Source: Paenibacillus sp. 37 (GTDB lineage Bacteria > Bacillota > Bacilli > Paenibacillales > Paenibacillaceae). Taken from it: a stretch of DNA of 64,000 nt. Below, piece after piece: positions 5,558 through 61,717 of the stretch (positions are counted from its first letter, which is position 1; the number at the start of each line of letters is the position of its first letter). Under the pieces are notes generated by a model. That model saw only the letters and a program-made list of their open reading frames with translations, was not told where the DNA came from and did not search any database. The translations under genes and the position numbers were made by a program. Where the stretch lies: assembly GCF_008386395.1 (NCBI RefSeq), contig NZ_CP043761.1:3100001-3164000 (forward strand), in the 5' to 3' direction.

Positions 5558-5597
5558 ATGAAAAGTCGTCACACACGAAATACATCAAATTGCATAT

Positions 5598-5721
5598 ATC
5601 ATTTCGTATAACCTCGCAGGCCGAAAGTGTACACAGGGCGAGGGTCTCTACGGGAAGCCTATACTTCCTAACTACGATGCCAAGGAATCAATGTATTCCT
5701 TGCTCGTAGTTAGGATTTTTT
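5598..5721 (+). ncRNA. Purine (guanine-type) riboswitch with overlapping terminator, ON-switch layout
   Basis: The three-way junction can be drawn directly. P1 is TCGTA 5604-5608 with TACGA 5673-5677. J1/2 is TAA. P2 is CCTCGC 5612-5617 with GCGAGG 5638-5643. J2/3 is GTCTCTAC 5644-5651. P3 is GGGAAG 5652-5657 with CTTCCT 5664-5669. J3/1 ends in AAC at 5670-5672. The ligand-pocket positions match guanine aptamers: U22, U47, U51 and C74 (base 5672). L3 begins with CC and L2 ends with GG, as needed for the loop-loop kiss. L2 is 20 nt instead of the usual 7. The terminator stem CCTAACTACGA 5667-5677 / TCGTAGTTAGG 5704-5714 plus T-run reuses the P3 and P1 3' strands, so ligand binding should prevent termination, as in pbuE. 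It precedes an EamA exporter gene. Confidence 0.85.
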
Positions 5722-41602: not shown

Positions 41603-43507
<1,905 letters not shown>

Positions 43508-43555
43508 AAGTAGATTGATGTATTAATCTGATGGTGAAGTGTTTTCATCGTTCCG

Positions 43556-43584
43556 TTGACATGGTGGAATTGGAAAATTATAAT
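43556..43584 (+). promoter_or_regulatory. Consensus sigma-A promoter of the ABC-F gene
   Basis: TTGACA 43556-43561 and TATAAT 43579-43584 with a 17-base spacer: a perfect consensus promoter, 405 bases before the ABC-F start. Confidence 0.9.
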
Positions 43585-43630
43585 TAGGATTGTACATCTA
43601 TACATGATAATGAAAGGTGGATTATTGAAC

Positions 43631-43675
43631 ATGACACATGCGATGAGACTGCGTTTCCTCCCTTTGAATCGGTAA
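43631..43675 (+). CDS. Leader peptide 1 of the ABC-F gene (14 codons)
   Basis: A short ORF reads MTHAMRLRFLPLNR and stops with TAA. AAAGGTGG lies about 10 bases before the ATG, and the promoter is 46 bases upstream. The last codons (CCTTTGAA 43661-43668) can pair with TTCAAAGG 43685-43692, so a ribosome stalled in the ORF would change folding of the leader before the terminator at 43789. From memory, similar short MRLRFP-type leader peptides precede ABC-F and other ribosome-directed resistance genes in Firmicutes; I could not check this. Confidence 0.75.
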   Translation: MTHAMRLRFLPLNR

Positions 43676-43823
43676 TTGAATACGTTCAAAGGCTCTGACC
43701 ATTGGTTCAGAGTAAACGGGATCAGTCTGTCATTTTCAATCATCCTGACCTTAAAATAAGTGTTTTACTCGCTTTCCCGTTTACGTTGAATCACAGGCTG
43801 TGGCCTGTGATTCTTTGTTTTTT
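43661..43823 (+). promoter_or_regulatory. Leader hairpins and terminator: transcription attenuator of the ABC-F gene
   Basis: Four hairpins follow leader peptide 1: CCTTTGAA/TTCAAAGG (43661-43692), CTCTGA/TCAGAG (43693-43712), GTAAACGGGA/TCCCGTTTAC (43712-43784), and the terminator AATCACAGGC/GCCTGTGATT (43789-43812) with a T-rich tail to 43823. The second and third share base 43712. The terminator lies inside the transcript made from the 43556 promoter, so it must be overcome for expression. Confidence 0.7.
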
Positions 43824-43881
43824 CTTCTGATTATTTTAATCAGGTAAAGGCGCTCAATACAGACTACCGGAGGTAACCGCT

Positions 43882-43905
43882 ATGATGACGTTACTGTTCT
43901 ATTGA
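43882..43905 (+). CDS. Leader peptide 2 of the ABC-F gene (7 codons)
   Basis: MMTLLFY followed by TGA. A strong GGAGGTAA lies at 43869-43876. Its stop codon overlaps the 5' strand of hairpin 1 of the translational attenuator (43904-43913), so a ribosome held in this ORF would melt that hairpin. Confidence 0.75.
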   Translation: MMTLLFY

Positions 43906-43988
43906 TACGAGCTGGCACGATAAGCTCGTATCGATAGAAGCGTGCTTCGCTATCGATACGAAATAAATCTTATTTCGGAGGTAGCGAA
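43904..43988 (+). promoter_or_regulatory. Translational attenuator hiding the ABC-F ribosome site
   Basis: Hairpin 1: GATACGAGCT 43904-43913 with AGCTCGTATC 43923-43932. Hairpin 2: CGTATCGATAG 43927-43937 with CTATCGATACG 43950-43960, excluding hairpin 1. Hairpin 3: CGAAATAA 43959-43966 with TTATTTCG 43970-43977. Alternative hairpin 4: TTCGCTATC 43946-43954 with GGTAGCGAA 43980-43988, excluding hairpin 2 and covering the GGAGGT ribosome site and the bases up to the start codon. States 1+4 (off) and 2 (on) give an ermC-like switch. Confidence 0.75.
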
Positions 43989-43989
43989 T

Positions 43990-45459
43990 ATGGAAAAGAT
44001 ATGTTTTGAATTAGAACAGGTTGAGATGACCTATATGGATAAAGTAATACTGAACATTGAGCGACTGGCTGTGCATCAACTGGATCGCATTGGTGTAGTA
44101 GGTGGTAATGGTCAGGGTAAAAGTACACTATTGAAACTCATTACGGGGCAGATCCAGCCAACTGCCGGAAAGGTAAAACGTTTTGCAGATTTTGGTTATT
44201 TGGAACAAGTGGAACCACCCCAGTCTAACGAAAGTATTGAAGTTGATGGGGCTTTACTCAGTAAATTAGCCATACCTCAACACGATCAACCATGGAGTGG
44301 CGGAGAACAGACCCGTCTAAAACTGGCTCAAATGTTCACTCATTATCATGAAGTACTGTTACTGGATGAACCAACAACACACCTGGATCAAGAGGGCATT
44401 ACATTTTTACTGGATGAATTGCGTTATTACTATGGGGCAATCGTGCTGATCAGTCATGACCGTGCGCTTCTGGATGAGCTGGTGACCACGATCTGGGAAA
44501 TTCATCAGGGAGAGGTACACGTATATTCCGGTAACTATAGCGATTATCGGCAACAGAAGAGGCTGGAGCGTGAACAGCAGAATCTGGCCCATGAACAATT
44601 CTCCAAAGAGAAAAGACGATTGGAACTGGCCGCCCGGGAAAAGATGAAGAAAGCCGAGAAAATAACGCAGGCTGGAAGCATGTCCAAAAAAGAATCCAAG
44701 GCAAAAGCAAACCGCATGTTTGAAACCAAATCCAAAGGTACAAGTCAAAAAGCAGTGCATCGTGCTGCTAAAGCGATTGAACAACGCATGCAACAACTTC
44801 AAGAGGTGAATGCGGTGCAGGAGGATCGGCCGATTATCTTCCGTCAGCCGAAGACATTGGAGTTGCACAACCGATTTCCAATTATGGCAGATCGCCTTAC
44901 GCTTGAAGTGGGTGGAAACATATTATTGAAGGATGTAAGTTTTCAAATTCCATTAAAACAAAAAATAGCGATTACCGGAGCCAATGGCAGCGGGAAAAGC
45001 ACATTGCTTAACCATGTTTTCCTTGCTGGAGATGGCATCACGATGTCTCCAAAAGCAAAGCTCGGTTATTTTCAGCAAATGAGCTATCGTTTCACGATGA
45101 AAGATACTGTATTACAATTTCTGAAAAATCGTTCGGAATATGAGGAATCAGAGCTGAGAAGTGCGTTGCACGCGATGCAGTTTACAGGGAATGACTTGCT
45201 CAAGAATGTGGGGACATTAAGTGGAGGAGAAGCGATTCGTCTTCAATTATGTCACTTGTTTCTAGGACAATATAACATTCTATTGTTGGATGAGCCGACG
45301 AATTTTCTTGACATGCATGCCTTGGAAGCGTTGGAACGTTTTATGAAGGCGTATGAAGGAACGATTCTGTATGTATCTCATGATCAGAGGTTTATTGAAA
45401 ATACAGCGGATCAACAATTTCAGATTACAGAGCGTCAATTAATTCAGGTGAATATATAA
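43990..45459 (+). CDS. ABC-F ribosomal protection protein, Vga/VmlR-like (489 aa)
   Basis: Two ABC ATPase cassettes: Walker A GGNGQGKST and GANGSGKST, signatures WSGGEQTR and LSGGEAIR, Walker B LLLDEPTTHLD and LLLDEPTNFLD. There is no membrane domain. The linker between them (about residues 190-290) is long, basic and helical (KKAEKITQAGSMSKKESKAKANRMFETK), as in antibiotic-resistance ABC-F proteins that reach into the peptidyl-transferase centre. It probably dislodges lincosamide, streptogramin A or pleuromutilin-type drugs from the ribosome. The start is set by GGAGGT 8 bases upstream. The complex leader supports drug-induced expression. The stop codon lies in the end of repeat copy D. The drug range is inferred. 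Confidence 0.88.
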   Translation: MEKICFELEQVEMTYMDKVILNIERLAVHQLDRIGVVGGNGQGKSTLLKLITGQIQPTAGKVKRFADFGYLEQVEPPQSNESIEVDGALLSKLAIPQHDQPWSGGEQTRLKLAQMFTHYHEVLLLDEPTTHLDQEGITFLLDELRYYYGAIVLISHDRALLDELVTTIWEIHQGEVHVYSGNYSDYRQQKRLEREQQNLAHEQFSKEKRRLELAAREKMKKAEKITQAGSMSKKESKAKANRMFETKSKGTSQKAVHRAAKAIEQRMQQLQEVNAVQEDRPIIFRQPKTLELHNRFPIMADRLTLEVGGNILLKDVSFQIPLKQKIAITGANGSGKSTLLNHVFLAGDGITMSPKAKLGYFQQMSYRFTMKDTVLQFLKNRSEYEESELRSALHAMQFTGNDLLKNVGTLSGGEAIRLQLCHLFLGQYNILLLDEPTNFLDMHALEALERFMKAYEGTILYVSHDQRFIENTADQQFQITERQLIQVNI

Positions 45460-61401: not shown

Positions 61402-61414
61402 AATCGCAATATCA

Positions 61415-61717
61415 AATGCGACGAAGAGACGAGTAGATAAAAATCATTCTTTCAAAGAGAGCTCCGGTAGCTGAAAAGGAGTAAAGAATCTTTTATTGAA
61501 TAAAGACTCAGAGCAGCACATCGGAACTTGGCATTAAGGGGATGGTGTGACAGGCGCTCCTGTTACAGAGCTAGAGTATGGATGGTCTACAGCTTGCAAT
61601 ATGGTTGTATACCTTTACTTGAAGAGGCGGATATGGTGACATATTGGCGAATCTGGGTGGTACCACGAGAGTTCAATCTCGTCCCTGAGACTATTGTCTT
61701 GGGGATGGGATTTTTTG
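61415..61717 (+). ncRNA. T-box riboswitch upstream of asd, specifier reads AAA (Lys)
   Basis: The core T-box GGGTGGTACCACG is at 61655-61667. Upstream is a stem I with GACGAGTAG (loop E side), GAGAGCTCCGG and ATTCTTT/AAAGAAT plus ATAAAA/TTTTAT helices. On the 3' side of the specifier loop the order GAA-T-AAA-G-ACTC (61498-61509) lines up with glyQS GAA-A-GGC-A, making AAA at 61502-61504 the specifier. The terminator (61676-61711 with wobble pairs, T-run to 61717) ends in GGGATGGGATTTTTT-like sequence. Uncharged tRNA-Lys should permit read-through. Confidence 0.88.

Follow-up and report, generated by a model that had tools for sequence, protein, structure and literature searches.

Why should a single resistance gene be preceded by two short upstream open reading frames (uORFs) and a set of mutually exclusive RNA hairpins? 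The question is raised by an ABC-F gene (43990–45459, + strand) in a 64,000-nucleotide stretch of the 7.6-Mb genome of Paenibacillus sp. 37 (contig NZ_CP043761.1, 3,100,001–3,164,000; this stretch is called the window, and all positions are given in its numbering); the near relatives of the locus that bear names are Paenibacillus xylanexedens and P. amylolyticus. The 434 bases from promoter to gene hold a sigma-A promoter, uORF1, an intrinsic terminator, uORF2 and three mutually exclusive hairpins. Comparison with related leaders indicates that this two-sensor leader is real and conserved, and it is probably a tandem, macrolide-gated double lock in which uORF1 serves transcription and uORF2 serves translation; the second lock looks translational. 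A first-pass annotation, made from the letters alone, had proposed two tiers, each with its own uORF and with exclusive helices, acting on transcription and then on translation, and both the sequence and the comparison back that outline.

The encoded protein (489 amino acids) scored 740 bits with NF000168, the Msr model of NCBIfam (curated cut-off, 680), and 449 bits with the Vga model (cut-off, 725); the cut-offs of the Lsa, Sal and CplR models were likewise not reached, and the top Protein Data Bank chain was 5zlu_EE (425.8 bits), deposited as a macrolide efflux protein. By sequence, the protein is a member of the macrolide/streptogramin B Msr family of ABC-F ribosomal protection proteins, resistance itself being predicted. 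Because the Msr model is passed and both leader peptides resemble published macrolide-stalled leaders (see below), macrolides are the expected inducers, rather than the lincosamides, pleuromutilins or streptogramin A (PLSA) named in the first-pass annotation. A two-tier leader that senses PLSA drugs in the manner of vmlR would have a precedent, as vmlR-type ABC-F attenuators join transcription and translation attenuation (PMC9226507, in the passages cited here). We nevertheless regard it as highly improbable: the protein clears the cut-off for Msr but none of those for Vga, Lsa, Sal and CplR, uORF1 bears a macrolide arrest motif, and the published PLSA-type uORFs encode 3–4 residues (MIN, MR[I/M], MK[L/Q] and MAGN; PMC10201436, as excerpted), whereas those of the window have 14 and 7 codons, neither being the 3-codon uORF of vmlR. 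The latter gene of Bacillus subtilis shares with the window an ABC-F product, transcription attenuation and a hairpin that sequesters the ribosome-binding site (RBS), but has one uORF (MIN), responds to other drugs and, in the same passages, shows no related peptide (PMC9226507).

The promoter (TTGACA-17-TATAAT; 43556–43584, + strand) was rightly called perfect, with 12/12 matches, and is the sole promoter-like + strand site in 43000–45000; as for a possible transcription start downstream of 43882, no promoter-like + strand site was found in 43585–43990. It is visible by eye in 18/18 aligned close leaders. The first peptide, MTHAMRLRFLPLNR (uORF1, 14 codons, 43631–43675), follows an RBS, AAAGGTGG, at 43613–43620, and is identical to ErmDL (MTHSMRLRFPTLNQ, as quoted in the cited part of PMC10314930) at 10/14 residues, with equal length. 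It begins MTHAMRLR, which fits the M-T-H-[SA]-M-R-L-R pattern of ErmDL/ErmK-type leaders, and thus has the macrolide arrest motif Arg-Leu-Arg and Ala at position 4, where ErmDL has Ser; according to excerpts of PMC8298421, the ErmDL–erythromycin structure is said to tolerate Ala at this residue, and the Arg-Leu-Arg motif is required for stalling with telithromycin and dispensable with erythromycin. Peptides of the MTHS/MTAS type are listed for mef, msr and erm genes (PMC4335068, in part). Among 25 close leaders, uORF1 is present in 24 and Arg-Leu-Arg is intact in 22; the motif reads RLY in L013 and RLH in L016 (L numbers denote individual loci), variants that, by analogy with the published ErmDL data, might still be erythromycin-responsive yet ketolide-blind. 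In the remaining leader, L021, a deletion removed uORF1 and the antiterminator region, leaving the promoter shifted to abut the terminator and the uORF2 tier, with its hairpins, in place.

The final codons of uORF1 lie within hairpin P1 (43661–43668 with 43685–43692), a pairing already noted in the first-pass annotation, and P1 is followed by P2 (43693–43698 with 43707–43712), a putative anti-antiterminator. The intrinsic terminator, first placed at 43789–43812, was found at 43788–43813 with a T-run behind it. Two further pairings had gone unmentioned: an antiterminator (43704–43720 with 43776–43792), which claims the 5′ edge of the terminator and shares its 5′ arm, and a long-range helix between the RBS and start of uORF1 (43614–43636) and 43728–43752. 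As the long-range helix crosses the antiterminator, the two exclude each other. Over 17 leaders, the antiterminator was paired in 98.7% of cells (A-U replacing G-C in 4) and the long-range helix in 92.1% (12 counted pairs, 4 of them changed on both sides). Treated as a duplex, the long-range helix was beaten by ≤5 of 200 shuffles in 10/12 leaders, was weaker in L025 (14/200 shuffles as good) and was no better than shuffles in L041 (80/200); L010, in which the pattern was not matched, was left out. The region 43591–43822 folds more stably than shuffles (z, −4.1). A terminator with an exclusive antiterminator downstream of such a peptide is the layout of the ermD/ermK attenuators, from which the window differs in its ABC-F gene, its single terminator and the second sensor behind it. 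In calculations on nascent RNA, the outer antiterminator rose from 0.35 (free) to 0.97 (ribosome stalled at uORF1 codon 7) when the transcript ended at 43793, and from 0.31 to 1.00 when it ended at 43808. In this model, a uORF1 stall tilts the balance before or during completion of the terminator, although the calculation is not a clean on–off switch.

The second tier opens with MMTLLFY (uORF2, 7 codons, 43882–43905), behind the strong RBS (GGAGG, 43869–43873) that the first reading had recognized. In streptococci, msrD has been described as under a double lock by the peptides MefAL (MTASMRLR) and MsrDL (MYLIFM), the latter of which stalls at its own stop codon with erythromycin and azithromycin and not with telithromycin, L3 and I4 being needed (PMC10314930). 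MMTLLFY and MYLIFM share the ending L-[LI]-F-x-stop, and the former stands directly before msr, as MYLIFM does in phi1207.3. Hairpin H1 (17 bp; 43897–43913 with 43923–43939) encompasses the last two sense codons (6 and 7) of uORF2 together with its stop; the earlier extent of 43904–43932 was too short, with the stop correctly placed inside. H2 (43928–43937 with 43950–43959) lies, as first described, between H1 and the helix that covers the RBS of the ABC-F gene (GGAGG, 43977–43981), and is incompatible with both. This last helix, H3 (43946–43954 with 43980–43988), had been recorded as 9 bp and is present as such, with an unlisted inner stem that it encloses (43959–43966 with 43970–43977). Given their shared arms, either H1 and H3 form together or H2 forms alone, and the exclusive helices leave the RBS closed in the unstalled state, as expected of a translational attenuator. 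In ermC-type translational attenuation, a three-way hairpin exchange likewise frees the RBS; the ermC peptide is of another class, and the window adds a transcription lock upstream.

Folding and comparison both point to this switch. The minimum for 43882–43995 was −46.6 kcal/mol, against a shuffle mean of −25.3 (s.d. 3.5, n = 200; z, −6.1), and no Rfam family covers the leader at gathering thresholds. Over 34 distinct leaders (35 in total), paired cells made up 95.6% for H1, 99.3% for H2 and 100% for H3, with a single H1 pair broken in 13/34; the covariation scores of H1 and H2 exceeded those of all 500 shuffles, a control that ignores relatedness. Full sequences folded without a ribosome gave H1 in 34/35 leaders and H3 over the RBS in 35/35, and a ribosome placed at the uORF2 stop, on RNA reaching up to the RBS, gave H2 in 35/35. 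For the window itself, H1 was certain without a ribosome, and nascent RNAs ending at 43961–43982 held H2 at 0 without and at 0.96–1.00 with a stalled ribosome.

The double lock would work as follows. Without drug, ribosomes would complete uORF1 and depart, the long-range helix, P1 and P2 would split the antiterminator, and the terminator at 43788–43813 would halt transcription; any transcript that escapes would fold H1 and H3 and shut the ribosome site of msr. With a macrolide, a ribosome would stall at the Arg-Leu-Arg of uORF1 and keep P1 and the beginning of the long-range helix from pairing, which would let the antiterminator fold and RNA polymerase continue. A second drug-bound ribosome would then stall at the end of uORF2 (LLFY-stop, as in MsrDL) and hide the 5′ arm of H1; the freed 3′ arm would form H2, which would sequester the 5′ arm of H3 before RNA polymerase reaches the ribosome site, allowing translation of msr. 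We infer the drug-induced stalling on either peptide, the kinetic trapping of H2 and the choice of drug. By analogy, cladinose macrolides should open both locks and a ketolide only the first, because in published work a ketolide stalls ErmDL and not MsrDL.

Several observations weigh against this account. At transcript ends 43797–43804 the antiterminator is favoured without a ribosome too (0.83–0.95), from 43813 on the terminator dominates whether a ribosome is present or not, and the modelled stalled ribosome covers the long-range helix only in part. RNA reaching the end of H2 prefers H2 without any ribosome in 14/35 leaders; in transcripts long enough to contain the RBS as well as the 3′ arm of H3, a stalled ribosome leaves H2 above 0.5 in 16/35 (the window not among them) and H3 in 19/35. 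In the window, full-length RNA with a ribosome on uORF2 still forms H3 (0.95–0.98), and the computed accessibility of the RBS is 0.4 in both states. Covariation of H3 is small (1/6 pairs changed on both sides) and a version slid by +3 scores as high, although covariation is little informative for so nearly invariant a helix. The uORF2 stop codon is UGA (43903–43905), whereas msrDL variants mostly have UAA and a change of UAA to UGA cut induction there (PMC10314930). The tiers are also separable: of the eight LLF leaders that belong to the family but not to the close clade, one (L041) has uORF1 nearby, and uORF2 is absent from 15/37 Msr-like loci with uORF1. In the models, then, both switches depend on folding order, and because the equilibrium state is H3, the mechanism needs H2 to form first and then to persist, either because exchange is slow or because an initiating ribosome keeps it in place. 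Folding with and without ribosome footprints, a check suggested in the first-pass annotation, therefore bore out the nascent shift to the antiterminator and to H2, but not at every length, and the window re-closes its RBS at equilibrium. Comparison of relatives, likewise suggested, found both uORFs and the helices kept, though the uORFs do not always occur together.

Is uORF2 then a sensor in its own right? It could instead be plain translated RNA behind uORF1 as the sole drug sensor, with passing ribosomes opening H1 and coupling the tiers without stalling, and its UGA stop and the several leaders that hold uORF2 without uORF1 can be cited for this. Its retention in the latter leaders also means that it serves a function independent of uORF1. 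Against this reading, opening of H1 by mere passage would leave msr on without drug, and the end of uORF2 resembles MsrDL, in which L3 and I4 are needed (PMC10314930). Selection, moreover, targets the four terminal residues and how far they stand from the stop, not length or start. A search for the ABC-F family found relatives at E ≤ 1e-100 in 67/394 genomes, at 69 places, of which 68 leaders were read (the remaining place, L032, is the latter half of a split gene that starts at L076). An LLF[YFH]-stop uORF precedes msr in 33/68 of these same-family leaders. Across 35 rows, the last four codons take 21 distinct forms, with five synonymous codons used for each Leu and two for Phe, and the residues before LLF number 2 to 5, or 8 with the distal start of L049. 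Conservation of these codons merely for H1 pairing was considered and rejected, as codons 6 and 7 are paired in the close clade only; leaders beyond it keep LLF[YFH] though only the stop-proximal core of H1 remains. We therefore consider a double lock with two sensors the better supported reading and uORF1 as sole sensor unlikely. Separately, the ABC-F genes at L024, L030–L032 and L076 appear truncated or disrupted, their matches being partial or split, and the leaders L024, L030, L031 and L076 hold both uORFs.

It is very unlikely that the second tier works, as reported for msrDL, through transcription or RNA stability instead of translation. MsrDL does relieve a terminator (PMC10314930), and stalled leader ribosomes can protect transcripts (PMC4335068, in the excerpts cited). 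But uORF2 overlaps no intrinsic terminator in the window, unlike MsrDL; no T-run follows H1, H2 or H3, no terminator-like + strand site is listed between 43814 and 45282, and H3 hides the ribosome site in 35/35 relatives folded without a ribosome.

The switch can also be found independently of the peptide. The H1/H2 pattern alone, run on 398 genomes of the class (Bacilli), matched in 20, once each, and the reversed pattern in none. Twelve matches were within the genus, all at loci already known. In the eight outside it, the uORF directly upstream ended in LLF[FY]-stop (7) or LFFF-stop (1), and an Msr-like start followed the switch, on an open reading frame of 482–486 amino acids in 7/8 (the eighth, by eye, began MGQICFELENV). 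A pattern that joined MQFLLFY to the start of the switch matched 0/296 genomes of the order, an uninformative result given that the pattern was too narrow to match the window itself. Short open reading frames are common, and chance small frames beside chance hairpins would need no mechanism at all; cross-genus conservation, the zero control matches and the fold z-scores of −6.1 and −4.1 contradict this, and its probability is close to nil.

The two peptides can likewise be traced apart from each other. A scan for MTH[SA]MRLRF across 84,980 species, with a single genome per species, returned 86 stretches, in which the next gene was Msr-like ABC-F (37), Mef-like (13), RlmA-like (10), Erm (10) or unrelated (6), ten stretches ending before it could be assigned; family models were run on examples of each class, the Mef-like and RlmA-like examples falling under curated cut-offs. 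Although the search used uORF1 alone, an LLF[YFH] uORF2 was present in 22/37 Msr-like loci (15/30 after removal of seven apparent repeat loci) and 4/13 Mef-like loci, and in 0/10 RlmA-like and 0/10 Erm loci. Behind uORF1, the RlmA-like methyltransferase genes are followed directly by an ABC-F gene in 9/10 loci (L082–L084, L112, L113, L125, L131, L132 and L154), and the interval from uORF1 to the first gene has no uORF2 of the LLF type.

In a 25-protein tree, the LLFY leaders group with the window, and a second msr branch (41–46% identity with the window protein across the matched region) groups with MsrD and MsrE. Here a uORF ending in [YF][FI][FY][IT]-stop, typically MRYMHWYFFI, occurs in 28/31 leaders; two of the three misses (L074 and L075) come from truncated matches for which no true start was assigned, and in L033–L037 and L050–L073 the ending is found in 28/29, about 75–140 bases before the first matched ABC-F codon. 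uORF1 is present in 17/29 untruncated leaders of this branch, mostly with 8 codons and ending RLR or RIR. In five aligned leaders, bases after uORF2 can pair, by eye, with the ABC-F ribosome site. Neither type of uORF2 ending was found in 7/68 leaders (L045–L048, L054, L074 and L075). On the Acinetobacter plasmid L166 (2420–2443), a hydrophobic uORF, MLAFVFT-stop, with GGAGG, precedes msr(E) and is possibly another MsrDL-like sensor, by its sequence.

Operons of mef and msr in Bacillales look like a link between the streptococcal operon and the leader of the window. In L043 and L044, the uORF2 peptide and switch lie between a Mef-like gene and msr, with another copy before the Mef-like gene, and the Mef-like proteins are 70% and 73% identical to that of L101. 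MsrDL occupies the matching gap between mef and msr in streptococci (L163: MefAL, mefA, MsrDL, msrD). The Metabacillus plasmid L164 (700–2505) has the order uORF1 (MTHSMRLRFPSLNQ), two terminator-like hairpins (by eye), uORF MMLFFY, a major facilitator superfamily (MFS) gene, uORF MQFLLFY and msr(G); an extra mini-ORF, MTATFA (985–1005), lies between its two hairpins, and similar MTA-type mini-ORFs occur in some other Bacillaceae leaders. Staphylococcal msrA has a uORF1-type peptide, MTASMRLK; the sequence inspected there contains no uORF of the LLF type. Judged by its order of elements, the window leader looks like such a mef–msr operon minus mef.

How much of this is new? The first-pass annotation held that one uORF per layer was unusual, and in part it was not: msrD is already known to be double-locked by a pair of erythromycin-sensing peptides (PMC10314930). 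There, however, mefA lies between the peptides and both are reported to act on transcription, whereas the window has both in one single-gene leader, with no terminator after uORF2 and with the RBS inside the switch; this one-leader layout, with a second lock that looks translational, is the part that seems new. The ermA/ermB leaders also place two leader peptides before one macrolide-resistance gene; in the cited part of that source (PMC8274638), control of ermB is translational, and its ermBL2 peptide is, by eye, unrelated to LLFY. uORFs are listed for CplR, VmlR, VmlR2 and LsaA, with follow-up on uORF consensuses called warranted (PMC10201436, in excerpt). No earlier description of an LLFY peptide or of such a tandem leader was found in the titles and abstract openings searched, subscription papers being outside that scope.

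With rather less than even confidence, we suggest that the leader may be an AND gate, in which an ErmDL-type sensor, responsive to macrolides with or without cladinose, would license transcription, and a cladinose-needing MsrDL-like sensor would license translation. LLF[YFH]-stop peptides would then be drug-dependent stop-codon stallers widespread in Bacilli, forming with the RBS switch a module placed before msr or mef-like pumps, alone or behind an ErmDL tier, with up to three sensors in a row in mef–msr operons such as L164. A single-gene leader that pairs two published kinds of macrolide-sensing peptide would allow gating of transcription and, seemingly, of translation to be compared side by side, and retention of two sensors for tight silence of a costly gene, or for drug discrimination, is a testable account. 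The comparison carries the MsrDL type of sensor beyond the mobile elements of streptococci to the genomes of many Bacilli, which suggests a possible source for the control region of clinical mef–msr. Elsewhere in the window, a T-box leader lies at 61412–61689 (103.7 bits, Rfam) and a weak purine riboswitch match at 5584–5694 (38.5 bits; gathering threshold, 37).

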